32,328 nucleotides of DNA, from the IMG/VR virus record IMGVR_UViG_3300036860_000210, positions 1 to 32,328 of that record; one strand, 5' to 3'. The translations under genes were made by a program, and so were the position numbers. Positions 1 to 21,939 of the stretch are shown here, piece after piece (positions within the stretch are counted from its first letter, which is position 1; each line of letters begins with the position of its first letter). Source of the DNA: a virus. The notes under the pieces are model-generated. The model was not told the DNA's origin. It searched no databases and saw only the letters and a list, made by a program, of their open reading frames with translations.

Positions 1-1120
1 CGCAGCGGGTGATCTTGTTCCAGTTGTTGTCTAGGTTCCCGGCCGCACCCGCGTCGAGATAGATGGCAGTAACCACGTTTCCAACAGCGTTGGCGGAGAA
101 CACGCATTCGGTGATGCGCCAGCGCAATGTGCCTGAAATCTTGATGCACGTAATGCCGGTAGTGCCCGCATCAATGAATCCGATGTGTTCTACTGCCCAG
201 CCGTGTTGGTCAACCGAACCACCTTCGGGATCGTTAAGAATGGTCATGCCGTTGGTGGCGGCTGAAATGTACGTGCCGTACGTGCTGTCGATGCCGGGAT
301 GACCATCACCGAGAATCTTCACCCCGGGCTTGGGTACGAGGGCAACAGTTGTCCGATAGATGCCGTGTGGGATGAAAACTGTACGGCCCTTGCCCCATGA
401 AGGATCAGCCGCTGCTGTGTCAATGGCAAGTTGAAGGGCTGTCGCGTTGTCGGTCGAGTCGTTTCCAACTGCCCCATACCAAAGGGCGTTTTCATGGGGA
501 GGCTCGTCAATGATCACCCGCTTATCGGTGATCCGGTTGGCAGTGATTGATGTGGCCGCCGGCAGAACGGTAACTGCCGCAAGGACGACCTTGCCCGTGG
601 TGATGGTGGGCAGGGCGGCTCGAGTTGGATCGGATGCCGTTCCGGCAATGGCGGTCTTCACCCCGGCCGTGTCCACCACGATGAGGTCGCGCCGCTTGTT
701 CGTAGCATCCGCTGCGGTGATGGTGACGTTAGCCGCTGCCACTTCGACACGGCGACCACCGATTCGCACCGTACCCGCAGCTACTGCAACCGTCATATTT
801 GGTGTGCCCTGAGCCGTTACAGCGCATCCTGGGCTGTTGCTTGTTGGCGTCCGTGCCTGCACGCCCGTTGGGCCTGCGCCATAACTTCCTGCGCTAGGGG
901 TACCATGCGACAGGCCGGCGGTCAGGATGTCTAGGTCAACCTTGTCCGGCGCCGCCTGGTCGCTGGTACCTGCGTCGACCTCGTTGGGGATGACAAAGCC
1001 GCCACGCTGTTCCGAGACAAAGCGATCCCACATCGCCCTGCCGTTTCGCCGAAATCCGGCGGGGGCCCGGGACACCTTCGCCGCGATAGCGGCGCCGGGA
1101 ATGTAAAGGCCACGGCTCAT
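1..1120 (-). CDS. Tailspike / beta-helix tail protein, pectate-lyase-3-like (3' end cut by window)
   Basis: The open frame runs from an ATG at 1118-1120 to the window edge without a stop, giving about 373 residues and no C-terminus. The N-terminal 100 residues look like a virion-anchoring segment. Near residue 225 the motif GAVGNDSTDNATALQLAID matches the start of pectate-lyase-3 right-handed beta-helix domains, followed by TVFIPHGIY and repeated short beta turns. Such proteins form tail spikes that bind or degrade surface polysaccharide during adsorption. The start overlaps the stop of the Tat-leader gene (TAATG), so the two are translationally coupled. The fold is recognised with good confidence; the substrate and any enzyme activity are not visible, because the catalytic part may lie beyond the edge. 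Confidence 0.8.
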   Translation of the reverse strand, partial: MSRGLYIPGAAIAAKVSRAPAGFRRNGRAMWDRFVSEQRGGFVIPNEVDAGTSDQAAPDKVDLDILTAGLSHGTPSAGSYGAGPTGVQARTPTSNSPGCAVTAQGTPNMTVAVAAGTVRIGGRRVEVAAANVTITAADATNKRRDLIVVDTAGVKTAIAGTASDPTRAALPTITTGKVVLAAVTVLPAATSITANRITDKRVIIDEPPHENALWYGAVGNDSTDNATALQLAIDTAAADPSWGKGRTVFIPHGIYRTTVALVPKPGVKILGDGHPGIDSTYGTYISAATNGMTILNDPEGGSVDQHGWAVEHIGFIDAGTTGITCIKISGTLRWRITECVFSANAVGNVVTAIYLDAGAAGNLDNNWNKITRC

Positions 1121-1368
1121 TACGCACCCCCCTGGAACGTGTCGACACCCTGAAAGGTCGAGCCGCCGGTGGTCTTCTGAAAGACGAAGATGCCCATGGT
1201 GGCAGGACTAGGAGGTGGACTGGGTGAGGGTGTTGGAGATGGCGTCGGTGAAGAACTTGGTGAGGGACTCAGTTTCGGTGTATGCGTGGGGCGAGGCTTC
1301 GGACTGGGACGAAACGCGATGACGCTCAGTCCGAGCGCCGCGACGCCGAGGAACTCCCGGCGATTCAT
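1120..1368 (-). CDS. Small exported protein with twin-arginine leader and Pro/Ser/Thr stalk
   Basis: This 82-residue protein starts MNRREFLGVAALGLSVIAF. N-R-R-E-F-L-G fits the Tat signal consensus (S/T-R-R-x-F-L-K) and is followed by a short hydrophobic stretch, with no obvious A-x-A cleavage site. Residues 21-56 are an almost pure Pro/Ser/Thr stalk. The last 25 residues carry Phe, Gly and Thr, with two copies of a TFQG-type motif. It overlaps the TatA-like gene by four bases (ATGA) and the tailspike gene by one base (TAATG). Inference: a Tat-dependent, membrane-tethered or virion-associated stalk that works with the neighbouring TatA and tailspike. No known family is recognised beyond the leader, and the low-complexity stalk alone would not make the case. 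Confidence 0.72.
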   Translation of the reverse strand: MNRREFLGVAALGLSVIAFRPSPKPRPTHTPKLSPSPSSSPTPSPTPSPSPPPSPATMGIFVFQKTTGGSTFQGVDTFQGGA

Positions 1369-1508
1369 TCATCGTCTCCCTCCGTCGCACCCTTGCGCAG
1401 TTCGTGTACCGAGCGACCAACCGCGCGCGCCAGCTCGGGGATCTTCTTCGCGCCGAACAACAGCACGAGGATCCCCAGGACGATGAACCACTCAGGGCCG
1501 AAGCTCAT
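1365..1508 (-). CDS. tatA: TatA/E-like twin-arginine translocase subunit, phage-encoded
   Basis: The protein has 47 residues. After a short N-terminus, residues 5-18 form one hydrophobic transmembrane segment. The hinge FGAKKIPELARAVGR is the TatA hallmark (F-G-x-K-K-[IL]-P-E-L), and an amphipathic helix follows (about 23-41) with an acidic tail. TatA oligomerises in the cytoplasmic membrane and supports export of folded proteins with RR leaders. The length is at the short end of the family. The start at 1508 overlaps the upstream virion gene (ATGA), and the stop overlaps the RR-leader gene (ATGA), so it is embedded in a virion operon rather than in a host tatABC locus. No TatC is visible, so it would need host TatC, or would act without it as a holin-like membrane-thinning peptide. 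Confidence 0.88.
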   Translation of the reverse strand: MSFGPEWFIVLGILVLLFGAKKIPELARAVGRSVHELRKGATEGDDE

Positions 1509-1948
1509 GGCGCGAACGTGATCGTGTAGACGCCGCCAGCAGCGAACTGAATCGTGAACGTGCCGGCGGTCGAGGTGAAGTCCGCTCCGAAGTTCATACC
1601 GACGAGTAGGTTGTTGCCCGCAAGCGCGTCTGCGTAGAGCTTGGCTCCGCGAGCGGTGACCGAGGTGGGCGAGGCCCATACTTCGTCGGCCATGTCGTAC
1701 GTCAACACGGCAGTGGCGCCAGCGACGACGAATGTCGGAGAGATGATGACCTGACCACCCGCCGTATAGCCGGTCCCAGAGACTTCATTCGTAGCCGCGT
1801 ATGCCGTCTCGGTCTCGAAGGCGGGAGTTTCCGTGTTGTTGTACATCGCCCACTTGTGGCTCGTCAGCGAGAAGTCGAGCGCTAGGTTCGTCGCGTTCAG
1901 TGCATCACGGAAGCTGAGCGCATAGAGACCGCTCTTGGTCCATGCCAT
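1505..1948 (-). CDS. Probable virion (tail/decoration) protein
   Basis: This 147-residue protein starts MAWTKSGLYALSF. It has a central GTGYTAGGQ motif, then a beta-rich half (VLTYDMADEVWAS, ARGAKLYADAL) and an ending of the type FGADFTSTAGTFTIQFAAGG. This pattern is common in small structural proteins near tail-fibre genes of siphoviruses, usually annotated only as phage protein. There is no signal peptide or membrane segment. It lies upstream of, and overlaps, the TatA-like gene. The structural role is inferred from the pattern and position; the exact virion location is unknown. Confidence 0.6.
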   Translation of the reverse strand: MAWTKSGLYALSFRDALNATNLALDFSLTSHKWAMYNNTETPAFETETAYAATNEVSGTGYTAGGQVIISPTFVVAGATAVLTYDMADEVWASPTSVTARGAKLYADALAGNNLLVGMNFGADFTSTAGTFTIQFAAGGVYTITFAP

Positions 1949-2140
1949 CTATTCCTCCTCAGTCACTTTGAGCTCGACCTCAAGCGTCTTGGGCTGTGCG
2001 ACGGCATCCTGGCGATCGTCCCAATGCTCTACGTGATAGCCGGCACGGGATCCATCGTCCTCGTTGACGACGGGCTTCTTCTGAGAGGTACCTCGCCGGA
2101 GCGACACACCCACCCCTTTCTCTTGCCACTTAGTAGGCAT
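1949..2140 (-). CDS. Hypothetical 63-residue protein in tail block
   Basis: A small charged protein that begins MPTKWQEKGVGV and ends in an acidic tail (EVELKVTEEE). It has no cysteines, signal peptide or membrane segment. The start ATG at 2138-2140 overlaps the end of the upstream small gene by 11 bases, and its stop directly abuts the start region of the virion gene at 1948. That packing supports real expression. No family is recognised; a minor structural or adaptor role is only a guess from position. Confidence 0.55.
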   Translation of the reverse strand: MPTKWQEKGVGVSLRRGTSQKKPVVNEDDGSRAGYHVEHWDDRQDAVAQPKTLEVELKVTEEE

Positions 2141-2303
2141 GTGCCCTCCGTTTCAGACAGCCACGTAGACGCAGCAGCCACAGTTCTGTCTTGCCGATTC
2201 GATGAATGGCGCGGATCGCTATCCAGCAGGCAGAACGGTAGTCCTCGTGCTCTAGGGCCAGCGCGTAGTGGGCCTCGAGGTGCGAGAGGTTTTCGACAGC
2301 CAC
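2130..2303 (-). CDS. Small phage protein, paralogue of the 23134-23424 gene
   Basis: A GTG start at 2303 with a GAGG five bases upstream gives 57 residues. The body reads VENLSHLEAHYALALE, then DYRSA, AIRA and LWLLRLRGCLKRR. It aligns without gaps to the first 50 residues of the 23134-23424 protein (VENL-H-YALA-DYR-A-AIRA-R-LW-LRLR-L-RR), with roughly half the positions identical. That alignment fixes this frame and start. It is predicted helical, with no export signal. Its function is unknown; both copies lie next to tail genes. A longer TTG-start version reaching 2399 is possible but less likely. Confidence 0.6.
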   Translation of the reverse strand: MAVENLSHLEAHYALALEHEDYRSACWIAIRAIHRIGKTELWLLRLRGCLKRRAHAY

Positions 2304-2419
2304 GCGAGCCTCGCGTTCTTCCGCCGTGCCACATGGCACCGACACCAACATCCGCCGGGAAGAAGCTTCTGACCGAGGGAGCACTCGGGGCAGCACCAAG
2401 GATGAGGGGCTCTGGGCAT
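2252..2419 (-). CDS. Short cysteine-rich ORF, possible zinc ribbon
   Basis: An ATG at 2417-2419 follows a near-perfect GGGAGG ribosome binding site and opens a 55-codon frame. The first half has a C-C-P-E-C cluster followed by C-W-C-R-C-H, which could bind zinc. The last 17 codons overlap the next gene in another frame, where the residues look less protein-like. The strong binding site and the spaced cysteines support it. The overlap and lack of a known family weaken it. Confidence 0.4.
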   Translation of the reverse strand: MPRAPHPWCCPECSLGQKLLPGGCWCRCHVARRKNARLAWLSKTSRTSRPTTRWP

Positions 2420-2432
2420 CAGGACCTCCCAG

Positions 2433-2505
2433 CGGTCCTAGGGAGTCGTGGGGTACGCGTCCGGCCTAGGTTCCGGGATCGCCTCCACAGCACTCCCTAG
2501 GACCG
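2433..2505. repeat. 14-bp perfect inverted repeat around CCTAGG, 45-base spacer
   Basis: CGGTCCTAGGGAGT at 2433-2446 is exactly reverse-complemented by ACTCCCTAGGACCG at 2492-2505. A third CCTAGG lies in the spacer (2465-2470). An imperfect second inverted pair follows (about 2518-2531 and 2564-2578). The arms could form a cruciform or RNA hairpin, or be paired protein-binding sites. The 45-base spacer is long for a terminator. Confidence 0.75.
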
Positions 2506-2600
2506 TGAAGAGTGGAAGGCTAGGCCCAGCCGGTCGCGACACCCATCACTGCCATACTGTTGGCGCTGGACCTAGCCCACCAATTTGACCCTACAAGCCA

Positions 2601-2641
2601 AGAGCCGCTCCTGAGGGAAGGGGGGGTTCAGGAGCGGCTCT
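2601..2641 (-). terminator. Strong hairpin terminator ending the early operon
   Basis: A 14-bp perfect stem (AGAGCCGCTCCTGA at 2601-2614 pairing with TCAGGAGCGGCTCT at 2628-2641) has a G-rich loop. It lies just downstream of the last early gene, which ends at 2697. There is no clear U tract, as is common in high-GC Gram-positive terminators. Confidence 0.75.
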
Positions 2642-2696
2642 AGCCGGGTCGAGGGCCCATCCCCGAGATGGACCCACCACACCAAGGGTAAGGAAA

Positions 2697-2864
2697 TCAC
2701 AGGCGTGGGATTCGGTCAAGAACCTGATCCCAGGCACGCCGGGCGTCATCCCGGAGCTCTCCCCTGCGAAGCCTCAGATACCAGACGTGCTCAGCGTGGC
2801 ACTCTAAACAGCGGCCCTTCCGGACAGCCGGCCGCTCGTGGCAGTCCAGGCACGGGGTCATCAT
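2697..2864 (-). CDS. Small zinc-finger protein, last gene of early operon
   Basis: This 55-residue protein has two CxxC pairs (C5/C8 and C19/C22, within PCLDCHERPAVRKGRCLECH), typical of a treble-clef or zinc-ribbon knuckle. A basic and acidic helical tail (RLRRGELRDDARRAWDQVL) follows. Tandem ATGs at 2864 and 2861 overlap the upstream stop. It probably binds zinc and perhaps nucleic acid or a protein partner. No specific family is recognised. Confidence 0.65.
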   Translation of the reverse strand: MMTPCLDCHERPAVRKGRCLECHAEHVWYLRLRRGELRDDARRAWDQVLDRIPRL

Positions 2865-3271
2865 TCGGGGATCGCTTCCCCCCGCTCCCATCGGCGCCGT
2901 TTGGCTGCCACTGAGGCCTCGAACTTCGCTACGGAAATACCCTCCCTGCCCTTCGGCGGTTGAACCATCAGCGGACCCACTACTCGTTCGAGAGCGTTCC
3001 TGGCGTTGTAGAGCTCCCACCGGGCCACGTACACCTTCTTCGCGGCGCGACGGGCCTCGGCCCTTCCCCGCGCCTTCGACTCCGCCAGGACGACGGCCGA
3101 GGTCGGATCCGCATCGTGAGCCTTCACACCGCCGGCGCTGTCGCCGACCGAGGGAGCAAGTGACCAGCCGTGGGCGTGGCGGTAGAGCTCACGGAGCTCG
3201 GAGAGGACGTCGGCGATGGCTCGGAGATCGGACTCGAACTCAGCGGGCGAAGGGAGCCTAGAACGGCTCAC
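2861..3271 (-). CDS. Hypothetical helical protein, early operon
   Basis: A GTG start at 3271 overlaps the upstream stop (GTGA) behind a GAGGTGG ribosome binding site and gives 136 residues. The sequence is mostly helical and charged, with an Arg/Ala/Glu-rich middle (ESKARGRAEARRAAKK) and a basic C-terminus (AAKRRRWERGEAIPE). It has no cysteines, signal peptide or membrane segment. The family is not recognised. Its place in the early operon suggests an accessory replication or host-takeover role, but the sequence does not show one. Confidence 0.6.
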   Translation of the reverse strand: MSRSRLPSPAEFESDLRAIADVLSELRELYRHAHGWSLAPSVGDSAGGVKAHDADPTSAVVLAESKARGRAEARRAAKKVYVARWELYNARNALERVVGPLMVQPPKGREGISVAKFEASVAAKRRRWERGEAIPE

Positions 3272-3570
3272 GCAACCACCTCGTAGGTGGCCTCGAAGAT
3301 ATCCGGCTTGCAGGGATAGAGCTCGCCCTGCACACCGCGGATGATCCAATCGTCCTGCCGGCCGAGCATCAGCCCTTCCTTCGTCGGTATCTGTAGGCCG
3401 ATCACGTCCGTGCTGTCGGCCGTGGCATTGCCGTCGCCGTCGATGTAGCAGCCCTCGGGTTTGCCGTCCTCAAGCTTGCCGATGCCCGCGAATTCGCACA
3501 TCTCGCCCCACGTATCCCAGCGCAGTTGAACCGCCTCGATCTCGACAGGCTTCTTTCGATAGCGCCCCAT
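3268..3570 (-). CDS. Conserved phage protein, MGRYRKKPVEIEAVQ family
   Basis: This 100-residue protein opens with MGRYRKKPVEIEAVQL, a well-known start of a widespread phage protein of unknown function. The C-terminus (WIIRGVQGELYPCKPDIFEATYE) also fits: the family typically ends with a G-E-x-Y-P-C-K-P-D-I-F pattern. ATG at 3570 is preferred to the adjoining GTG at 3573, and a G-rich ribosome binding site lies just upstream. The protein is probably cytoplasmic. The family is recognised with confidence; its function is not known. Confidence 0.78.
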   Translation of the reverse strand: MGRYRKKPVEIEAVQLRWDTWGEMCEFAGIGKLEDGKPEGCYIDGDGNATADSTDVIGLQIPTKEGLMLGRQDDWIIRGVQGELYPCKPDIFEATYEVVA

Positions 3571-3580
3571 CACTCCCCCC

Positions 3581-4543
3581 TCACGCGCACGACCACGGCG
3601 ACCATCCCTGTGCCTCCACCATCCGCGCCGTCACCACGATCATCGTGCGGCTGTTCCCCCACCAGGATCGGAGGTGCCACCACATCGGCGCGTAGCTCCG
3701 CACTCGGTCGTACCACGATGCCAGCGCATGTTGGGCTAGGCCGACGTAGGGGCCGCCGGCGTTGTACGCCAGGCGCCACCACCCCGACTCGCACGAGATG
3801 ACCGATCGGAACTTGCTCAGCCCGCCGGGCACCGGCCATCGCTTGAGGACGCACCACGTCGTGCGGTCCTCCTCGCGTTGGGTCCAGATTCCTCGATCGA
3901 GCCCTTGGAACCTGCACTGTTCCTGCCTCCAGTTTGCGTTCTCTGATCCGGCTAGGTGAACATCACGAAGCCGGGTTGTCTGTTCTGCCTGGCGGCTGTC
4001 CCCCCAACCTCCCACCAAGAGCAGAAGGGGGACAGCTATGCCAGCGATCACGTGTTTCCAGTTCTGTCCTTTCGCCGCTTTGTAGATGGTGCCCCAGTGA
4101 ACGCCGTATGTGATTGCCAAGCTCTCATAGGTCGGCGGACGAGGCGCTGCCCTCGCAGCCCGGATCTCGCGAACTTGTGCTGCCGTGAGTCTGTGATTTG
4201 GTGTCCGCTCACCCCGAACTCGGGTAGCCACATCGCGGCCCTTGGCTTGTCGGTCAAGAGCATTGTCCCGATGCGTCCCCAGGAATAGATGCGCCGGATT
4301 CACACAGGGAGGGTTGTCGCAGGTATGGCAGACAAGGAAACCGGGGGGAATAGGACCGTGAGTGAACGTCCACGCAGCGCGATGAGCCCAGAACTTGTTC
4401 TGGCCGATTGTGAAGCGGCCATAGCCTAGGCCGTATCCCCGGATGATTTGCCCCCGCCATTCCCAACACTCTGTCGCCCCCCTTCGGACTACCTTGCTCC
4501 AGAACCGTTGCTCATCTGCAACAGTCCACGTCATTAATCTCAT
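3581..4543 (-). CDS. HNH homing endonuclease fused in frame to membrane-anchored lysozyme/transglycosylase-like domain
   Basis: This 320-residue protein has two unrelated halves. Residues 10-105 are an HNH_3-type nuclease (ECWEWRG, then CHTCDNPPCVNPAHLFLGT with H73, C75, C80, N82 and H85). Residues 119-163 are an HTH tail that ends GQNWKHV, where free-standing family members normally stop. Reading continues without a stop into a transmembrane segment (about 165-180) and a goose-lysozyme/transglycosylase-like domain: SCESGWW with candidate catalytic E252, N261, YVGLAQ, and the ending ARMVEAQGWSPWSC. A GTG at 4051 (codon 165) could start the lytic domain alone. The start at 4543 has a perfect GGAGG. 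It overlaps the upstream HTH gene by 32 bases. Inference: a mobile HNH gene landed at the 5' end of a lysozyme-like gene. Confidence 0.78.
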   Translation of the reverse strand: MRLMTWTVADEQRFWSKVVRRGATECWEWRGQIIRGYGLGYGRFTIGQNKFWAHRAAWTFTHGPIPPGFLVCHTCDNPPCVNPAHLFLGTHRDNALDRQAKGRDVATRVRGERTPNHRLTAAQVREIRAARAAPRPPTYESLAITYGVHWGTIYKAAKGQNWKHVIAGIAVPLLLLVGGWGDSRQAEQTTRLRDVHLAGSENANWRQEQCRFQGLDRGIWTQREEDRTTWCVLKRWPVPGGLSKFRSVISCESGWWRLAYNAGGPYVGLAQHALASWYDRVRSYAPMWWHLRSWWGNSRTMIVVTARMVEAQGWSPWSCA

Positions 4544-4778
4544 TCGTACCTCCGTCGAGTAGGCCGCGCGGGCGCGGCACGGGACGGTCTCGGTCTGTTG
4601 CTCTCACCTCCTCCCACCAGCCATGGAATGTGTAACCGAAGGAATTGACGATCTGCGAGACACGAGCGGGCGTCAGATCAACAATCTCGGCGATGTAACG
4701 CCGTCCGAAGCCCATGGAGAAGAGCTCCATGATGTGTTCGTTGCGGGCTGCTTGCTCAGCAGTGGTGAGCCAGCTCAC
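4512..4778 (-). CDS. HTH protein (sigma-region-4-like)
   Basis: A GTG start at 4778 overlaps the upstream stop (GTGA) and follows GGGAGG, giving 88 residues. Residues 13-48 form a helix-turn-helix: MELFSMGFGRRYIAEI, then LTPARVSQIVNSFGY, the pattern of sigma-region-4 or transposase-type HTH units. A basic tail follows. It probably binds DNA and may regulate middle or late genes. The C-terminal 10 codons overlap the HNH-lysozyme gene, so the original end may have been disturbed by that insertion. Confidence 0.62.
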   Translation of the reverse strand: MSWLTTAEQAARNEHIMELFSMGFGRRYIAEIVDLTPARVSQIVNSFGYTFHGWWEEVRATDRDRPVPRPRGLLDGGTNEINDVDCCR

Positions 4779-9656: not shown

Positions 9657-9988
9657 GGTCGGCGCCCTATCTCCGGATCACGGCGCCGACGCCGGACTTC
9701 GTCTTTCCACGCTTGCGTCAGCGTGTAGTACCCACCGAGGTCACTCGGGTTGTCCTCGAACCCGTAGTGCCGCGCCTCATCATCGGAGAGCTTAAGACGT
9801 TTCAGGCCCTCGTCGTAATCACCGAAGAGCTGCCCCGTCACACACTTGCAGGAATCGCTGATGTCAAGAGGCCGGATCTTGATCTTGCGCCACCAGAACG
9901 GAACGAGCCTATCCAGCAATCCAGCACCAGCAGATGCCCGACCTCGGGTCCGTTCCGCCATTGATCTGACGTGCGGTTGTCTCCGCAT
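9653..9988 (-). CDS. Conserved actinophage-type protein (SDSCKC motif)
   Basis: The start at 9988 overlaps the upstream stop (TAATG) and gives 111 residues; an inner ATG is possible. The core DISDSCKCVTGQLFGDYDEG, then EARHYGFED, then YYTLTQAWKDEVRRRR is a pattern I recognise from unnamed phage proteins of high-GC Gram-positives. It has a Cys pair and a basic C-terminus. No catalytic motif is seen. Confidence 0.6.
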   Translation of the reverse strand: MRRQPHVRSMAERTRGRASAGAGLLDRLVPFWWRKIKIRPLDISDSCKCVTGQLFGDYDEGLKRLKLSDDEARHYGFEDNPSDLGGYYTLTQAWKDEVRRRRRDPEIGRRP

Positions 9989-10257
9989 TAGAAGTGCCAC
10001 TTCCAGTTGACGCTGTAGACGACGGGCGCGAAGTATTTGACCCAGCGCGTGTAGTAGTTCCAGAATCGGAAGTAGCGGGGACCCCACGCCGTGTGAACGG
10101 TGACGTTCATCTGGACTGCGTAGGCCGTGTAGTTGTAGCAGACGACCTTGTGCGCGGTCGGCACCCGGCAGAAGACTTGGGCCGCTTGCGCCGGTGCCGG
10201 CATGAAGGCCACCAGGAGCACCGCGATCATGGTCGCGGTCACGATGATGCGTCGCAT
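9988..10257 (-). CDS. Small secreted protein with Sec signal peptide
   Basis: An ATG at 10257 with GGAAGGGA gives 89 residues. Residues 1-26 form a clear Sec signal (RR, hydrophobic core IIVTATMIAVLLVAF, then PAPAQA-A as the cleavage site). The mature part (about 63 residues) has a Cys pair (VFCRVPTAHKVVCYNY) and is rich in Trp, Tyr and Phe, looking like a compact beta domain. As an early-operon exported protein it may change the envelope or block superinfection. Family not recognised. Confidence 0.65.
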   Translation of the reverse strand: MRRIIVTATMIAVLLVAFMPAPAQAAQVFCRVPTAHKVVCYNYTAYAVQMNVTVHTAWGPRYFRFWNYYTRWVKYFAPVVYSVNWKWHF

Positions 10258-10271
10258 CACAATCCCTTCCT

Positions 10272-10787
10272 TCAACATGCCGAGGTGGTCGTGTTCTCGA
10301 CTGCGGTCGTGGCCTGATCGATCGAGCTCGTCGCCGCGTTCACTTCTTGAGTCGCGAGTGTGTACTGGCCAGACTCAAGAGCAGCCGCAGAGGCGTCGAG
10401 GTGATTCGCCGCACTCTCCTCCAGACTCGAGATGGCCGGATCGGCCGCAGTCAGGACCGCGACCGCATGAAAGTCCGATGCGGCGCTATGGACGAAGGAG
10501 ACCGCGCTAGCGACATCGCCGTTGTTCGCGGCTTGGCCTGCGGCGGTCAGCATCTCCGACGCATGGTTCGTCTTGGCGGCAGCCGCCTCGCCGTCGATGC
10601 ATGAGGCACCGACAGCCGGCGCCACGGTTGTCGTGGTCGTGGGCTCAGTTGCCGTGTTCTGGTTCAAGAGGCCAGCCCCGGTTAGGGCGACGACGATCCC
10701 GCCTGCGATCCACGGCCAGCGCTTCTTCTTCGGTGCTGGTGGTGCCGGTGCCACTTCTGGTGGTGCCGGTAGTAGCTGCGTGTCCAT
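10272..10787 (-). CDS. Membrane-anchored extracellular helical protein
   Basis: The ATG at 10787 overlaps the upstream stop (TGATG) and gives 171 residues. After a Pro-rich N-terminus and a KKKR stop-transfer cluster comes a transmembrane segment (about 25-41, PWIAGGIVVALTGAGLL). A Thr-rich linker (TEPTTTTTVAP) and a helical Ala/Ser domain (about 65-171) with one Cys near each end follow. The topology is likely cytoplasmic N-terminus with the helical domain outside. The shape is typical of host secreted or anchored proteins. It and the secreted protein just downstream are the exported products of the early operon; an exclusion role is inferred. Confidence 0.62.
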   Translation of the reverse strand: MDTQLLPAPPEVAPAPPAPKKKRWPWIAGGIVVALTGAGLLNQNTATEPTTTTTVAPAVGASCIDGEAAAAKTNHASEMLTAAGQAANNGDVASAVSFVHSAASDFHAVAVLTAADPAISSLEESAANHLDASAAALESGQYTLATQEVNAATSSIDQATTAVENTTTSAC

Positions 10788-11505: not shown

Positions 11506-12204
11506 ATGGCGACGGAGAACGCCCAGGCCAAGCCCCGGTCCTTCGCTCAGGAGCGGCGGCTGATCGGCCGGCGGGTGGCTGCCGGGAGGGTCCTGCGAGG
11601 CTACAACCAGGCTCAGCTCGGAGCGGCCTCGGGGCTCAAGCGGCAGACCATCTCAGAGATCGAGCAAGGGATTCGGGCCGTGAAGGCCGAAGAGGTTCCG
11701 TGGCTGGCGAAAGCCCTAGGCCAACCGATCTCGTGGTTCTTCGAGGATGTAGCTTTGGGCCTAAAGCTCAATCGCGCAAAGGTCCATCCCCCGTCAGCCG
11801 TCTCGGAATCCGTAACCCGCCGGATGGCCTACAGTCAAAACATCAGTCACACTCCCCCCATCCCCGATAGGGGTGGGGGGGGTGCCCGAGAGGGCCCAAA
11901 AGTGGTCGACCTCGGCGAGGCTCGACGTGAGCGGACCCGACATCTTCGAGATCGTGGGGAGGTGGGAGGACTGGCTCGCGGTGCGGGGCCGGGCGCCGGA
12001 GACGATCCGGGAGTATCGGGCCTACTTGCTGAACGCCGGCGCGCTCCTGCGAAAGGATCCGCGATGGTTCTCCCCCGACGACATCGTCGCTGTCCTGAAG
12101 TCCTACGCCGACCGGGGGCCGGCCAAGACCAACATGATCACCGCGCTGAAGTCATTCTTCCGCTTCGCCGAGGCCCGCGAGCTCTGCGGGAATCCCATGG
12201 CTGA
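11506..12204 (+). CDS. XRE-family HTH regulator, likely lysogeny repressor; frame disturbed at 3' end
   Basis: Residues 34-57 form an HTH domain (YNQAQLGAASGLKRQTISEI), and residues 61-80 (AEEVPWLAKALGQPISWFF) finish the XRE fold. About 40 residues of linker follow. After the G8 tract at 11875-11882, the frame stays open to 12204 only as a shadow of the integrase: the residues become Arg/Gly/Ala-rich and GC at third positions falls here, while the integrase frame takes over. So the real protein is probably about 120 residues, or the first part of an HTH-integrase product made by a frame change. It is the first gene of the rightward lysogeny transcript and the best candidate for the immunity repressor. 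Confidence 0.68.
   Translation: MATENAQAKPRSFAQERRLIGRRVAAGRVLRGYNQAQLGAASGLKRQTISEIEQGIRAVKAEEVPWLAKALGQPISWFFEDVALGLKLNRAKVHPPSAVSESVTRRMAYSQNISHTPPIPDRGGGGAREGPKVVDLGEARRERTRHLRDRGEVGGLARGAGPGAGDDPGVSGLLAERRRAPAKGSAMVLPRRHRRCPEVLRRPGAGQDQHDHRAEVILPLRRGPRALRESHG
11854..11882 (+). repeat. C/G hairpin and G8 tract at HTH-integrase junction
   Basis: C6-AT-C4 (11854-11865) pairs with G4-T-G6 (11870-11880) across a GATA loop with one bulged base. The G tract (eight G, 11875-11882) continues past the stem. The stem covers the earliest integrase start (GTG 11873). It could sequester that start, pause polymerase, or stimulate slippage. The coding frame changes here. Confidence 0.65.
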
Positions 12205-12760
12205 TATCGCCGTGAGACCAGAGCCGGAGAAGGACGCGGCGTCGCTGGATCCAGAGCAACTCCGGGCGCTTCTGCGCGCCGCCTTCCGGCGGGACCCACG
12301 GCGGGGCTGGACGCTGACGCTGCTCTACGCCACAGGGGCCAGGATCGGCTCCCTAGTGGCTGTCACAGCGGAGGATGTCACGCCAGCGAGCATCACGTTC
12401 CGGACCATGAAAGGGCATCGGGGAGCGCATGAGGTTCCCCTCAATCGGCTGGGGCGCATTTCAGCTTTACACTTGCTTGCCCTCAATCCAGGACCTCGGC
12501 CCACGCTGATCGGCGTGGGCAAGGGCGCGATCTGGCAGTGGGTACATCAGGCAGCGCTCGAGGGGAATGTCAGGGTCGACGGGCGGCTGGCCTGGCCACA
12601 TCTGCTCAGACACTCCGCGGGGACGGCAGCCTACGAAGCGACCAAGGACCAGCTCGGGGTGGCCGAGTTCCTCGGACACAAGGACCTCCGGCAGATCCGA
12701 AGGTATGTGGGACGCACCGACGAACGCAAGCGTAGAGTGGCCCAGGCCGTCGGCCTGTGA
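11873..12760 (+). CDS. int: Tyrosine recombinase (phage integrase)
   Basis: From GTG 11873 this has 295 residues; GTG 11882 and GTG 11927 are other possible starts. Residues 24-105 are a SAM-like core-binding domain (DIFEIVGRWEDWLAVRGRAP; ALKSFFRFAEARE). Residues 125-290 are the catalytic domain with all active-site residues: R157 (TGARIGS), K180 (MKGHRG), H243 and R246 (PHLLRHSAGT), H269 (LGHKDL) and nucleophile Y278 (RRYVG). It should integrate the phage into the host chromosome by attP x attB exchange. It lies downstream of the HTH gene, and third-position GC supports its frame from the G8 tract onward. The attP site could not be identified. Confidence 0.92.
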   Translation: MGGVPERAQKWSTSARLDVSGPDIFEIVGRWEDWLAVRGRAPETIREYRAYLLNAGALLRKDPRWFSPDDIVAVLKSYADRGPAKTNMITALKSFFRFAEARELCGNPMADIAVRPEPEKDAASLDPEQLRALLRAAFRRDPRRGWTLTLLYATGARIGSLVAVTAEDVTPASITFRTMKGHRGAHEVPLNRLGRISALHLLALNPGPRPTLIGVGKGAIWQWVHQAALEGNVRVDGRLAWPHLLRHSAGTAAYEATKDQLGVAEFLGHKDLRQIRRYVGRTDERKRRVAQAVGL

Positions 12761-13564: not shown

Positions 13565-13885
13565 TCATTCTCCGTGCTCTGCGGCGAACTCGATATGAGG
13601 CAGGTACTCGAAGCCAGCCTGCTCAGCGGCGGCCGTGTCCCCGTTGTCGCTGACGTAGATGAACCGATCCTCGTCGGGGTGCATGGCTTTCACGGCCTCG
13701 AGGTTGGCCGCACGGTCGCCCCCGCCATTGGGAAGGACGACAGGGAAGAACGGCGGCCGAGCCGCCGACGGGCTCACGATGTAGACGTAGTCGCCTCGAT
13801 GCTGGAGCCCGATCAGATGGGCGTCGCTGATCGGGCCAGCCGAGGAGGTGAGCGTCCCGTCGACGTCGAAGGCAAAGACGGTCAT
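13565..13885 (-). CDS. HAD-superfamily phosphatase/hydrolase
   Basis: This 106-residue protein has motif I FAFDVDGTLT (nucleophile D7, acid D9), a motif II-like IVSPSA, and a motif IV-like FIYVSDNGDTAAAEQAG. It is shorter than free-living HAD enzymes and lacks a large cap domain. It could act as a small phosphatase, for example on a nucleotide or on a DNA or RNA 3' end together with the neighbouring SNase; this pairing is inference from adjacency. It overlaps the upstream holin-like gene by four bases. Confidence 0.72.
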   Translation of the reverse strand: MTVFAFDVDGTLTSSAGPISDAHLIGLQHRGDYVYIVSPSAARPPFFPVVLPNGGGDRAANLEAVKAMHPDEDRFIYVSDNGDTAAAEQAGFEYLPHIEFAAEHGE

Positions 13886-14088
13886 CGTTCCTTGAGCCAG
13901 GTCACCACGGCCGGCACCAGGCCCAACAGGACCACGACAGCACCGATTTGGGCCGCAGTGAGGTCGAGGCCGAACAGCGTCACCAGCGCCCCCACAACCA
14001 CCGACACTGTGCCTGCTGTCGTCTCCGCAGGACGTTTCCTGGCCACCTTCTTGACGACCTTCGTGGTCGCCTGAACGGGCTTGGTCAC
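13882..14088 (-). CDS. Holin-like small membrane protein
   Basis: This 68-residue protein has a basic N-terminus (TTKVVKKVARKRP), then two hydrophobic stretches (TAGTVSVVVGALVTLFGL; AAQIGAVVVLLGLVPAVV) and ends WLKER. This matches small actinophage holins. The start is GTG 14088 with AGAGGAGG upstream. It lies downstream of the endolysin and accessory lysis genes. Probably the main holin candidate. Confidence 0.62.
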   Translation of the reverse strand: MTKPVQATTKVVKKVARKRPAETTAGTVSVVVGALVTLFGLDLTAAQIGAVVVLLGLVPAVVTWLKER

Positions 14089-14702: not shown

Positions 14703-15080
14703 TCATTCACACACCAATGTCTTGGAGTTCCAGATGGCGAAGTGCCCGCCGGCGCGGGTGTCGCCCTGGATGACGGCGTAGTAGGCCACGGTCCGAACAC
14801 AGGCAACCTTCAGCTGAACGCGGATGCTCCGACACCCACCGGAGTCACAGTGCCGCGCCTTCTCCTCGACGATCCGGCCGCTCCCGGCTTCGATGATGAA
14901 GCCCGTGACCAAGAGGAAGCGGTGCCTCTTGCTCACCACGTAGGTCCCGCGGGCCTTGGCGTAGCCATCGTCGATGAAGAAGCGGTGATCCCGGATCTGG
15001 GACGTGCCATGCGCCCATGCAGGAGCCGAGCCCACCAGAGCCAGGCTCAGCACGAGCGCCAGGATGTACCCGCGTCTCAC
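14703..15080 (-). CDS. Secreted protein of the lysis cassette
   Basis: GTG 15080, four bases after the endolysin stop, gives 125 residues starting with a Sec signal (RRGYILALVLSLALVGS, then APAWA-HG as cleavage site). An upstream ATG would hide the signal, so it is not preferred. The mature domain is beta-rich with four cysteines (HCDSGGCRS, VACVRT, the final C), probably two disulfides. It may act in the envelope during lysis or exclusion. Family not recognised. Confidence 0.62.
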   Translation of the reverse strand: MRRGYILALVLSLALVGSAPAWAHGTSQIRDHRFFIDDGYAKARGTYVVSKRHRFLLVTGFIIEAGSGRIVEEKARHCDSGGCRSIRVQLKVACVRTVAYYAVIQGDTRAGGHFAIWNSKTLVCE

Positions 15081-15084
15081 CTGC

Positions 15085-15507
15085 TCACCCGCTGATGAAG
15101 TACGAGTAGTGCCAGGGCTCATCCGGACGCGCCTGATGCCAGCCTTCGGCCTTCAGCGCAGCTCGCATGAGGGTTTGGTTGGGCGCCGCCGTGCTCACGT
15201 CGATGGCCAAGCCGCGGGTGTGGAGCGTTCCGTTCGGGCTCGCGTATCGGTTGGGATCCCTCCGATAGCACTCAGCCTGGAAGGCGCAGGAGCGCCATGA
15301 GCCTGTCAGCGGGATCGCCCGCCACTTCCGTCCCGTCCGCTCCCCATACCGGCGCTCCGCAGCCTTGAACGATCGCATGGCAGCGGCCTGGAGCTTGACC
15401 GGTGAGCCTCCCTCAGGAGGCTGGTCGTAGAGCTGGAGGTTCGGATAGTCGTCCTTGCAAACCCCGTTGTAGTGGATGATGCCGTACGGCGTCTTCTGGT
15501 CGGTCAT
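15085..15507 (-). CDS. M15-family peptidase endolysin (VanY/L-Ala-D-Glu type)
   Basis: This 140-residue protein starts at ATG 15507 with AGGAGG. It has the M15 zinc-peptidase motifs: SWRSCAFQAEC, TLHTRGLAIDVS with H96 and D103, and DEPWHYSY with E130 and H133 (third zinc ligand). These enzymes cut D-Ala or L-Ala-D-Glu peptide bonds of peptidoglycan. It has no signal or wall-binding repeat, so it needs a holin to reach the wall, and holin-like genes lie downstream. It opens the lysis cassette. Confidence 0.85.
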   Translation of the reverse strand: MTDQKTPYGIIHYNGVCKDDYPNLQLYDQPPEGGSPVKLQAAAMRSFKAAERRYGERTGRKWRAIPLTGSWRSCAFQAECYRRDPNRYASPNGTLHTRGLAIDVSTAAPNQTLMRAALKAEGWHQARPDEPWHYSYFISG

Positions 15508-15558: not shown

Positions 15559-15589
15559 GTCACCAGCGATGACGGGAGGAGGTGAACAC

Positions 15590-15880
15590 ATGAAGCGATT
15601 GGTGGCAGCGATGGCCCTCGGCCTGACCCTGCTGGCGACTCCGGCCCTGGCCTCCTCGATGGGCGGGCCCGGCGACGACGTGATCTTCGGCACGCAGCAG
15701 GTCGACGACCTCTCCGGTGGTCCCGGAGCGGACCTCATCTACGGTCGGGCAGGCGACGACTACCTCTATGGAGGTCGCGGCGCGGACGAGCTGCACGGCG
15801 GGCCCGGGTTCGACATCTGCTTCGCCCAGTCGGTGGACGTGGTCTTCGGCTGTGAGGTGATCACAGGCGACCAGGGCTGA
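15590..15880 (+). CDS. Secreted RTX-type calcium-binding repeat protein
   Basis: ATG 15590 with GGAGG eight bases upstream gives 96 residues. Residues 1-21 form a Sec signal (KRLVAAMALGLTLLATPALA). The rest is a row of RTX nonapeptides (GGxGxDxUx): GGPGDDVIF, a variant, GGPGADLIY, GRAGDDYLY, GGRGADELH, GGPGFDICF. They should fold into a calcium-bound beta-roll. Two cysteines near the end may pair. It is unusual as a stand-alone phage protein: there is no toxin, protease or adhesin domain. It has its own promoter on the plus strand inside a minus-strand genome, the hallmark of a moron gene. Confidence 0.8.
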   Translation: MKRLVAAMALGLTLLATPALASSMGGPGDDVIFGTQQVDDLSGGPGADLIYGRAGDDYLYGGRGADELHGGPGFDICFAQSVDVVFGCEVITGDQG

Positions 15881-18361: not shown

Positions 18362-20581
18362 CTAGACGATCCCGGAGGTGCCGTTTCGCCGCTGGAGTTT
18401 CAGGATGTACTCGTAGACCTTCCGGCCGGTGACCTCCGGATCACCCGCCCCACTGACGTTGATGGTGGCGTAGATGTTGCCTCCGCCGCCACCACCTCCT
18501 CCTCCGCCACTCGGCGTGATGTCCACGCGTTCCCTCGTGCCGGCCTCACCGGCGAGGATCAGCGTCGGGCTGGAAACCATCCCGTGGAAACCGTGCTGGG
18601 CACGCTCGACATTGAACAATCGGGCGGCGACCTGGATGCTTACCGGCCCGAGGCTGTTCACGAACGAGCGGAACGACGCGACGGCGGCCCGCGCTGGACC
18701 CGTATCGGCGATGATGTCGATGGCCTTCTTGGCCGGGATCCCCTTGATCGAGGCGGCGAGGTCGTCGGCCTTGTCCTTCGCGTCCTTCATGGCATCGCGA
18801 GCGATCTTCAGCGCTCCGCTGAAGTCTCCGACGGCCAACAGATTGTGGATCTGCTGCTTCTCGAGATCGGTGAGCGAGCCCCCGTATCGAACCGTCTGAA
18901 CGATCACCTCGCGGAGTCGTTCCCGCTGCTGCTCCGTGACCCGGATAGCGTCGGACATGACGAACCACAGATCCTGCTGCGCCCTCGTCAGCCCGGAGAC
19001 ATTGTTCTGCTGGATCTTGGCGGCTGTAGCCACATGCGTGGCGCTCTCCGCGAGGTGCTGGCCCTCAACTCCCGCCTTGCCCCACGCGCGTGCTACGTCG
19101 CCAGCAGCCGCAGTCGCCTCTTCGCTGTTCTTTCCAGCTATCTGCACGGCCTCCGCGTACCGGTTGATCGAACCGGTGGTGTCGCTCGCCGTGTGCTGCA
19201 GGGCAACGTATGCGGCCGCGAACGCGACCAGAACGACCGTTGCCGCAGCAGCCGCAGTCGCCATGACCCCGACTCCTCCTGCCACTGCTGCCGTCCCTGC
19301 TGCTGCCGGAGCGGCAGAGGCCCCGATGCGAAGGAAGATGCTGGTGATCCCTCCGCTGACCTTCAGGAGGCCGCCGAAGATACGGAGCAGCGGGCCGAGT
19401 GCGGCGACTAGGAGCCCGATCTTGATGATCGTCTCCTGCATCGCCGGTGAGAGGTTCGAGAAGGCCTCGGCCCAGCCCTTGACCATATCGGCGATCTTCA
19501 GCGCGATCGGCAGCAGCTTCTGGCCGAGGTCGATGGCAGCGACCTTGAGCTTGGTGAGCGCCTGCTGGAACTGGAATCCGGCGCCCTTGGTGGTCTCCTC
19601 GAACGCCTTGTTCAGCGAGCCGGTGGAGTTCTTCACCCGGTCGAAGATCTCGTTGACCTTGTCCGCCTCCTGCCCGGTGAGCCCGAACGCGCCGGTCATG
19701 GCCCGGATGTTCGGGATGATCACCCGCATCTCGTCGATGTTTCCGTGCGTCCGCTCCTCGAGCAGCCGGAGCGCGCCGAGGATCCCTTCATCGGAGATGA
19801 CCGAGCGCATCTGATCCGCCGAGATACCGATGGTGTCCATCATCTCGGCCGCCGCCTTGCCCGGGGCGACAAGCGCCGAAAGCAGGCCTCGCATGGCCGT
19901 GACGCCCTCGTTCACGTCCAGGCCGATGTTTGAGAGGCTCGCCAGCGACGCCGCGATCTCGTCGAATCCCACCCCGGCCTTGGCGGCGATCGGGAGGATC
20001 CGGCCCATGGCGGTACCGAACTCATCGGTCTCCGCTGAGCCCTCGCGGACGGCGGCTACCAGCGTGTCGGTGACCTTCGCGGCCTTGAGTCCCGTACCGG
20101 AGTAGGCGTTCAGAGTGTTCGCGGTGAGCTTGGCGATGGTGGCCGTGTCGCCCAGACCGGCGGCGGCTGCCTTGGCCGAGGCTTCTAGGGTCGGCATGAT
20201 CTGAGTGGTCTTCAAGCCGGCGGAGGACAGGAAGAACAGGGCGTTAGCGAGCTCGCGCGGGTCGCGGGCGGTGGCGCCGGCGAGTGACTTCACCGACTCC
20301 TTCCACTTGTCGATGTCCTTCTGCGAGGCATTGGAGACGGCGGCGATCTTGGTGAAGGCACCCTCGTAGTCGGTGGCCATCTTCACTGCGGCAACACCGG
20401 CGCCGACGATCGGCAGCGTGAGGTTGCGGGTGAGCGTGGCGCCGGCGGAGGAGAGCCGCTGACCCACCTGGCGCATCTTGTCGCCGATGTTGGCGTGGGC
20501 CGTATCGATCTGCTTCAGCGCACCGAGGACGCCACTCGCGTCTCCGGTGTACATGATCCGTAAGGTGCGACTCCCGGCCAT
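18362..20581 (-). CDS. Tail tape measure protein
   Basis: This 739-residue protein has the TP901/PhageMin tail core in residues 65-330 (MATDYEGAFTKIAAVSNAS, AVREGSAETDEFG, MRGLLSALVAPGKAA), followed by hydrophobic segments (about 385-418 and 432-461, AAVAGGVGVMATAAAAATVV) and a helical C-terminal part. Near the end a run of ten glycines precedes a beta tail (NIYATINVSGAGDPEVTG), common in this family. The length would give a tail of roughly 110 nm. It sets tail length and may help DNA entry. It follows the frameshifted chaperones and the gp10-like gene. Confidence 0.92.
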   Translation of the reverse strand: MAGSRTLRIMYTGDASGVLGALKQIDTAHANIGDKMRQVGQRLSSAGATLTRNLTLPIVGAGVAAVKMATDYEGAFTKIAAVSNASQKDIDKWKESVKSLAGATARDPRELANALFFLSSAGLKTTQIMPTLEASAKAAAAGLGDTATIAKLTANTLNAYSGTGLKAAKVTDTLVAAVREGSAETDEFGTAMGRILPIAAKAGVGFDEIAASLASLSNIGLDVNEGVTAMRGLLSALVAPGKAAAEMMDTIGISADQMRSVISDEGILGALRLLEERTHGNIDEMRVIIPNIRAMTGAFGLTGQEADKVNEIFDRVKNSTGSLNKAFEETTKGAGFQFQQALTKLKVAAIDLGQKLLPIALKIADMVKGWAEAFSNLSPAMQETIIKIGLLVAALGPLLRIFGGLLKVSGGITSIFLRIGASAAPAAAGTAAVAGGVGVMATAAAAATVVLVAFAAAYVALQHTASDTTGSINRYAEAVQIAGKNSEEATAAAGDVARAWGKAGVEGQHLAESATHVATAAKIQQNNVSGLTRAQQDLWFVMSDAIRVTEQQRERLREVIVQTVRYGGSLTDLEKQQIHNLLAVGDFSGALKIARDAMKDAKDKADDLAASIKGIPAKKAIDIIADTGPARAAVASFRSFVNSLGPVSIQVAARLFNVERAQHGFHGMVSSPTLILAGEAGTRERVDITPSGGGGGGGGGGNIYATINVSGAGDPEVTGRKVYEYILKLQRRNGTSGIV

Positions 20582-21016: not shown

Positions 21017-21538
21017 TGAGCCCGTCCCGTCTGTCTTTCAGCTCACGCATACGTCGCTCTCGCTCGAGAGCGACCTCGCGGTCGCGAAGGACCATCAGCA
21101 CCGCCTCGTAGAGCTCCGGATCCTCATCCGGCAGCGCTCGCGTGACGCCGCCGGTGTTGACCAGGACGCTCGCTAGCTCGTAGGTGGCGGTGCCGCGATC
21201 GTAGGGTTTGGCTCCGGGGCCTCCTCGGCGAACTTCACGTCGAGCTCGTCGACCTCTTCGCAGAAGACGTCGAAATTCCCGACTTGCCCATTCAACGAAC
21301 GCGCCAACGCCCGCCAGCCGTAGAACAGATGCCACTCCTCCCGCACGTTCGCGAAGTCGGCACCCGGCTTGGGATCACCCTTCTCGTCGTAGAACTCGCC
21401 GAACTTGCTGAAGGAAGCCGAGGAGAGCTTGAACCGCCGCTCGAAGGCGATGCGGTCGGCCGTGCACATGTAGGTCTTAGTCTCGGCCCGCAGCTCCCGG
21501 CCATCGAGCATCGTGACAGTCACAGTCGCCGTCGTCAT
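21009..21538 (-). CDS. Tail assembly chaperone GT, made by -1 frameshift
   Basis: The zero-frame G product (21173-21538, 121 residues, start ATG 21538 overlapping the secreted gene) carries MTTATVTVTMLDGRELRAET and a helical core (FYGWRALARSLNGQ). At 21203-21209 the mRNA reads A-AAC-CCT, a canonical X-XXY-YYZ slip site. A -1 shift there joins residue 112 to a second frame (YDRGTATYELASVLVNTGG, then LRDREVALERERRM) that ends at 21009, giving a 176-residue GT protein. Lambda gpG/gpGT-type pairs in this position fold the tape measure before tail assembly. The second frame also has a long 5' extension, which is a shadow. Confidence 0.82.
21173..21538 (-). CDS. Tail assembly chaperone G (unshifted product)
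   Basis: This is the zero-frame 121-residue product of the chaperone gene, ending PNPTIAAPPPTS just after the slip site. In lambda-like phages the unshifted form is the more abundant one. It begins MTTATVTVTMLDGRELRAET. Upstream it overlaps the secreted protein gene by four bases (ATGA). Confidence 0.8.
   Translation of the reverse strand: MTTATVTVTMLDGRELRAETKTYMCTADRIAFERRFKLSSASFSKFGEFYDEKGDPKPGADFANVREEWHLFYGWRALARSLNGQVGNFDVFCEEVDELDVKFAEEAPEPNPTIAAPPPTS
21203..21209 (-). promoter_or_regulatory. AAACCCT slippery site for -1 frameshift
   Basis: On the minus strand the mRNA reads A AAC CCT with AAC and CCT in the zero frame, so both tRNAs can re-pair on AAA and CCC after a -1 step. It lies about 36 bases before the zero-frame stop and inside the overlap with the second frame. 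A downstream stimulatory structure was not worked out. Confidence 0.75.
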
Positions 21539-21939
21539 GGTCCGCTCACCGAGAGGTTGTTCGTCGTATCGGTGAGCACGACCGAGGTGAACTGCACGGT
21601 CATCGGAGGACTGCACTCGGGCGAGAACGTGGCCGTAGCGGTGAGCGTGTAGTCAGCCTTTCCGTTCTGCACCGGCACCACTGCCGACGTCGAGAACGAC
21701 GTCTTGTTCTCCGCCTGCGGGTGATTGCCTCCGCCGTTGATACAGTCCGCCGTTCCCGACAGGACCGCAACGATTTGGTCCTCGTCCCCGAGCCCGGCCT
21801 CCTTCGCCGTCACCATCACGGTATTGCCCGATGTGGTGAACACGGGCGTCCCCACGAAGTGTGGGCTACCCGCCTGGGCTGGCAATGCGAGCACGCCGAG
21901 CAGGAGCCCGATCGCCAGTGCAACTACTAGCTTCCTCAT
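21535..21939 (-). CDS. Secreted protein inserted in tail operon (moron-like)
   Basis: ATG 21939 with AAGGGAG gives 134 residues. Residues 1-23 form a textbook Sec signal (RKLVVALAIGLLLGVLALPA, then QA-G cleavage). The mature part is beta-rich, like an Ig or adhesin domain (GTPVFTTSGNTVMVTAKEAG; GKADYTLTATATF), with two cysteines (TADCINGGGN, SPECSPP). It resembles secreted proteins of high-GC soil bacteria. A secreted protein between the tail tube and the chaperones is unexpected; it could be a host-derived cargo or an exclusion factor. Confidence 0.7.
   Translation of the reverse strand: MRKLVVALAIGLLLGVLALPAQAGSPHFVGTPVFTTSGNTVMVTAKEAGLGDEDQIVAVLSGTADCINGGGNHPQAENKTSFSTSAVVPVQNGKADYTLTATATFSPECSPPMTVQFTSVVLTDTTNNLSVSGP

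Follow-up and report, generated by a model that had tools for sequence, protein, structure and literature searches.

A predicted phage-encoded TatA paired with a small protein carrying a twin-arginine-type leader beside a tailspike gene

The window, i.e. the whole stretch of DNA analysed here, is the 32,328-base IMG/VR record IMGVR_UViG_3300036860_000210, which by its gene content belongs to a temperate tailed phage. Besides the integrase, replication and tape measure genes listed in Table 1, it has terminase-, portal- and capsid-type genes towards its right end (the terminase was identified by search, the portal and capsid genes by direct reading). The isolated phages closest in the terminase are Streptomyces phiC31-like phages (33-35%), thus the host is likely actinobacterial. 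At the left end four genes follow each other: a gene of phrog_644, a family without assigned function, tatA, the gene of a small protein with a twin-arginine leader (RR protein) and a tailspike gene, whose product contains a pectate-lyase fold domain (PF12708). Direct reading of the letters shows that the stop of phrog_644 and the start of tatA share an ATGA (4 nt overlap), that the stop of tatA and the start of the RR gene share another ATGA (4 nt overlap) with GGAGGGAG upstream, and that the RR stop and the tailspike ATG overlap by 1 nt in TAATG, so the four genes are likely co-translated. A reading of the window made previously from the sequence alone had coupled the pair to the tailspike gene, and these junctions, as well as the coordinates that it gave, proved correct. 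No promoter-like site was found in window positions 1-4600, and the RNA fold around the junction showed nothing remarkable. In relatives the phrog_644 gene stays adjacent to tailspike or fibre genes.

Table 1. Features of the window that are discussed in the text.
Feature	Position	Strand	Evidence
phrog_644 gene, 147 aa, PHROG without assigned function	1505..1948	-	PHROGs E 3.3e-9
TatA, 47 aa, MSFGPEWFIVLGILVLLFGAKKIPELARAVGRSVHELRKGATEGDDE	1365..1508	-	PF02416, TIGR01411, AF2 model, PDB relatives
RR-leader protein, 82 aa	1120..1368	-	sequence, junction, homologues in L009/L010
Twin-arginine leader MNRREFLGVAALGLSVIAFR, residues 1-20	1309..1368	-	direct reading and motif rule
Pro/Ser/Thr stalk, residues 21-57	1198..1308	-	direct reading
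C-terminal motif MGIFVFQKTTGGSTFQGVDTFQGGA	1123..1197	-	alignment with L009/L010
Tailspike, at least 373 aa, extends past record end	2..1120	-	PF12708 E 2e-8; PHROG tail-spike matches
Replication genes	5.4-6.7 kb
Integrase	11873-12760
Two-TM holin-like protein	13882-14088		phrog_9752 holin, weak, E 0.009
Peptidase-like candidate endolysin	15085-15507		D-Ala-D-Ala-carboxypeptidase-type motifs by direct reading
Tape measure gene	18362-20581

The product of tatA scored 58.2 bits with TIGR01411 (tatAE, cut-off 53.9) and 49.1 bits (E 3.3e-13) with PF02416 (cut-off 21), above the curated cut-offs of both models, and its best matches in a phmmer search of the PDB were solved TatA chains (9e07_F, E 2e-8; 7b7o; 2l16). 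It has a polar residue (E6) before a short TM helix, an FG hinge (F18-G19), an amphipathic helix and an acidic end. In an AlphaFold2 model, computed from an alignment of nine phage TatA sequences, helices at residues 6-18 and 22-46 are separated by a break at the FGAK hinge (mean pLDDT 80); the model is very short, and Foldseek found no PDB match for it. TatA does not need the segment past its amphipathic helix for activity (reviewed in PMC9527704), so that 47 residues can make a complete TatA. It must be noted that L37 occupies the position of F39 in E. coli TatA, which counts against a function in Tat export. Judged by the model scores, the gene is to be regarded as encoding a genuine, very short TatA, in agreement with the sequence-only reading. 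At three loci the phage TatA is matched (E 0.0001-0.003) by phrog_29532, a PHROG to which no function is given and which is probably an unnamed TatA-like family.

The second protein of the pair, also recognized in that reading, starts in the overlap with the tatA stop and has the predicted leader motif and stalk. Its NRREFLG fits the pattern (S/T/N)RRxFL and is followed by a moderately hydrophobic h-region (best 13-residue mean hydropathy 2.4). By reading, the leader has no evident AxA site; AxA-like sites are present in the partners at loci L091 and L097 and in RR2 of L092 (see below). Profile searches with the RR protein returned no Tat-leader model and no meaningful match, only low-complexity Pro-rich ones, so the term RR leader is founded on the motif and its recurrence. 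The C-terminal motif is similar to AFQQDAFQQDAFQ, which belongs to a fibre-module protein of a related record, G012, and the N-terminus of the 297-aa module protein of G012, MANAFQQDAFQQDAFQEPTGG, resembles the C-terminus of the RR protein. Among all loci fetched only the window and G012 phage types carry the motif. The resemblance, which is that of a short motif and proves nothing, is a hint at a fibre-module motif presented by the RR protein.

It is instructive to compare the window with its close relatives at the same locus, L009 and L010, which share ~50% identity with it in the phrog_644 protein. In both, an RR gene follows phrog_644 immediately (TAATG-coupled). Its product has a PTPTPT stalk behind the leader SRRGFV and terminates in TGRSFxGGPDLVGGNLTGG, a stretch that can be aligned with TGGSTFQGVDTFQGG of the window protein. 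One gene lies between the RR gene and the tailspike gene; in L009, for which the comparison was made, the tailspike is 35% identical to that of the window over residues 42-220. The RR genes of L009 and L010 differ by 10 synonymous and 3 nonsynonymous codon changes (dN/dS ~0.11), and both tatA and the RR gene have dN/dS values of ~0.1-0.3, indicating purifying selection; the RR gene is to be taken as a real, conserved gene. No TatA was found at the locus or elsewhere in the L009 and L010 records, which are possibly partial. The presence of RR genes without TatA in these relatives suggests that the RR gene is common to the locus, that TatA is a variable element between phrog_644 and the RR gene, and that the RR gene does not obligatorily require TatA. 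In two other related records, G001 and G012, the TatA-RR pair occurs elsewhere within this virion-accessory module; downstream of it lie genes for proteins that have Sec-type signals, and phrog_644 or fibre-like genes (84% between the phrog_644 of the window and of G001). G002 has neither gene within the part of the record covered. Thus, the idea of a system belonging to this locus held for the RR gene, which is kept in L009 and L010, and failed as to uniformity, TatA being missing there; likewise, related phages do have the pair (G001, G012), at another place of the module, and not all of them do (G002).

Signal-bearing proteins were also seen at other places. The TatA-RR module of G001 includes a signal-bearing DUF1996 protein (L103:3651-4616, minus strand, 151 bits). 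In a more distant relative the gene directly after phrog_644 (L028:8547-9731), at the place of the window's TatA-RR-tailspike genes, encodes a signal-bearing protein in which a Thr-rich stalk is combined with another long domain. At L091 and L101 large signal-bearing genes lie a few genes past the TatA-RR pair. In the window itself, the small protein encoded at 15569-15880 (plus strand, opposite to the late genes) combines RTX calcium-binding repeats (PF00353, 51.6 bits) with a Sec-type signal, and three other small proteins (21535-21939, 14703-15122 and 9988-10278, all on the minus strand) have signal-peptide-like N-termini and no Pfam match above cut-off. The phage seems to encode unusually many predicted exported proteins. 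In the frame at 3581-4543 (minus strand) an HNH endonuclease is continued by a C-terminal part resembling a stand-alone signal-bearing protein (CESGW...YVGLAQH) of G001 (L103:8015-8455), similar to one in G012; the frame may be an in-frame HNH fusion.

The distribution of the pair was studied in 2.9 million viral contigs by scans that used TatA features alone, with alignments and DNA patterns as queries. One alignment (A2) was built in part from bacterial TatA sequences; another (A1) contained two consensus-like rows and was used in no search. A single-sequence scan with TatA (50 aa) gave no match, probably owing to the short query. About a dozen TatA carriers were found among the 2.9 million contigs, and later scans mostly repeated them. 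When the likely cellular contig G014/L102 is left out, they form nine lineages. In six of these a gene with an RR or RK leader adjoins tatA, usually overlapping it (the window; G001/G010/G012; G005; G006/G013; G007; G011), and in three (G008, G009 and L121) there is no adjacent RR gene. The overlap is ATGA in the window, GTGA at L091, L101 and L097, and longer at L095 and L089; at L098 the genes are separated by a 12-nt gap, and at L092 a 60-aa RR protein is encoded ~90 nt upstream of tatA. The RR proteins are 60-82 aa long in the window, L095, L098, L092 (RR2) and L009/L010, and the other partners 127-198 aa. For the L098 partner no further relatives were found. The background frequency, determined with an automatic motif rule in 83 other viral loci, was 4 Tat-like genes in 974 (~0.4%), from which the chance of five automatic matches among nine lineages, with two neighbours per tatA, is ~4e-9; this is a rough figure, as G011 escaped the rule and the neighbours were checked by eye as well. 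The window and G001 lineages share phrog_644 and are therefore partly dependent; merging them makes the count 5/8.

As to the nature of the carriers, terminase genes are present in G001, G012, G005 and G008, G007 has terminase and portal genes beside the pair, G011 has Erf, RecE and RusA, and G006 a weak portal match. G013, G009 and L121 had no match to the terminase and portal models tried, and their viral status comes from IMG/VR's own call. Sequence comparison thus indicates that at least four other, unrelated phage groups carry the same kind of pair, and the description of the two genes as a unit, offered for the window, is justified. The link to tail-fibre genes that was part of the same proposal is not general: in G007 the pair sits between the terminase and portal genes.

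Several candidates were rejected. TatA matches among isolate phage records were all in UNVERIFIED, unannotated assembly nodes labelled as Listeria or Staphylococcus phage and were left uncounted as host carry-over; five UNVERIFIED 'phage' records that contain a TatA-like match, among them OR849886.1 and OR846728.1, are likely host DNA. A derivation of the L091/L101 partner from a major capsid protein, considered at first, was not supported by a search for a paralogue in the same records (with a query whose first four letters were inexact). A pattern for the exact TatA and an ATGA-coupled RR gene had one match in 84,980 species genomes, not an RR gene on reading; the pattern was strict, and prophage copies could escape it.

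It could be argued that tatA is a stray host gene next to an unrelated small gene, or that a cellular piece was mis-binned as viral. Few viruses indeed have TatA, other relatives lack it, and the 6867-bp contig G014/L102, which has tatA and a piece of tatC within 5 kb, looks cellular and was set aside as probably such. We find this explanation very unlikely: at either end the window tatA overlaps a phage gene, other records with the pair also have genes for terminase, portal or phage recombination proteins, and the RR gene is conserved independently.

Apart from G014, none of the 14 TatA records (the window included; records may be partial) has tatC, which supports the expectation that the window encodes no TatC. 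A Tat function of these proteins would therefore need host TatC. A screen with Klebsiella phages identified tatC as a host factor for some of them and found no Tat signal in the phages that it covered (PMC13412088). It is conceivable that the RR peptide and excess TatA occupy host TatC and block host export, weakening the envelope or excluding other phages. The very short RR proteins of several lineages (60-82 aa, little cargo) and the role of tatC in Klebsiella phage infection would suit such a block, which we consider quite unlikely, since the other partners are longer and more TatA should relieve a block rather than cause one.

Another possibility, raised already in the sequence-only reading, is that TatA is a membrane-lesion peptide similar to holins or pinholins, and the RR protein a lysis regulator or an incidental neighbour. 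The TM and amphipathic helix arrangement resembles that of small one-helix holins (PMC9527704), and in G009 the gene after tatA encodes a one-TM protein of 39 aa, and the second gene beyond it a lipoprotein-like protein with a coiled-coil end, a gene set that could be a lysis cassette. In the window, however, tatA is not beside endolysin or spanin genes, and a separate candidate lysis cassette lies far away at 13.9-15.5 kb (Table 1). Moreover, the phage protein retains Tat-specific residues and scores as a genuine TatAE, and a lesion peptide leaves the recurrent RR neighbour unexplained. Weakened by the separate cassette and the recurrent partner, this alternative is unlikely in our judgement.

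The direct translational coupling of the RR and tailspike genes raises the question whether the RR protein is a Tat escort. Such an escort would bind another virion protein or the tailspike, already folded, in the cytoplasm and carry it through the Tat pore as a hitchhiker, and display or release of the depolymerase would precede lysis. The cytoplasmic folding of trimeric beta-helix tailspikes would suit Tat. The RR gene is also near a homologous tailspike gene in L009 and L010, and the RR C-terminus resembles the FQ motif of the fibre-module protein. On the other hand, another gene intervenes in L009 and L010, no tailspike was seen near the pair in G007 and G011, and assembled tailspikes are very large for Tat. 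An escort role seems rather unlikely to us.

The interpretation that we favour, with a little more than even confidence, is that the phage-supplied TatA raises or retunes the activity of the host Tat machinery towards its own RR partner, which would be exported or anchored in the membrane. TatA would be made in translational coupling with the small twin-arginine protein and the tailspike, presumably late in infection. The RR leader would dock at the host TatC complex, which phage TatA would join as a pore- or thinning-forming subunit, and the flux of the RR substrate would be raised or retuned. The RR protein would thereby be inserted into, or moved across, the cytoplasmic membrane, with the Pro-rich stalk and C-terminal motif outside; the lack of a clear cleavage site in the leader favours a membrane-anchored stalk. 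Use of host TatC, export and anchoring are steps that we infer. As to its purpose, the weakest step, the RR protein would most likely be displayed on the envelope and cooperate with the tailspike/fibre module as a tether or a receptor mask, a link suggested by the RR-tailspike coupling and the proximity of the two genes in L009 and L010. The full version, in which the two genes take over the host exporter late in infection and display a fibre-linked ligand that masks receptors or tethers virions, we find doubtful. Tat is chiefly needed for folded cargo, and the window RR protein has no evident folded domain, which counts against a Tat role, as do the three TatA lineages without adjacent RR gene and the RR genes of L009 and L010 without TatA.

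The phage TatA shares the family, the TM-hinge-amphipathic-helix plan and conserved residues with TatA/TatE of the bacterial Tat translocase. It differs from them in being encoded by a virus, with no tatC or tatB adjacent, in its length of 47 residues and in its place inside a tailspike operon. The phoD-tatAd-tatCd operon of Bacillus subtilis is a dedicated Tat operon with a substrate gene. In dedicated bacterial operons, as in the phage, tatA stands beside a likely substrate gene; their substrate is a folded enzyme, whereas in the phage it is a short stalk protein encoded in an overlapping frame. In Lentibacillus salicampi a chromosomal tatA (L114:4334-4525, minus strand) has an RR-leader gene and the gene of a GMC-type oxidoreductase as neighbours, a cellular case in which tatA adjoins its likely substrate. 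It is known that phages send their envelope proteins through host export pathways. The one-helix holins TpeE and BhlA (PMC9527704) have, like TatA, a short TM segment followed by an amphipathic helix, with proposed membrane thinning, but are unrelated to it in sequence, lack the TatA residues and have no RR partner. The T4 antiholin RI is reported to use a cleavable signal peptide (PMC8385771); RI and the RR protein would be alike as phage proteins that a host exporter takes across the host membrane. The window differs from this case by a Tat-type leader plus a phage-made Tat subunit. We know of no phage-made exporter part for T4 RI.

In the literature searched, in which few subscription papers were covered, we found no description of a phage-encoded TatA paired with a Tat substrate; the apparent matches opened were mostly TATA boxes or unrelated words. 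The novelty is accordingly provisional. If the full version given above is true, the two genes would be a so far undescribed viral export module, present in several unrelated phages. Upon confirmation of the TatA-substrate pairing they would offer a natural 47-aa TatA with a co-inherited substrate for studying how TatA contributes to cargo choice, exemplify viral remodelling of the cell surface ahead of lysis, and provide a possible direct reason for the importance of tatC in phage infection.
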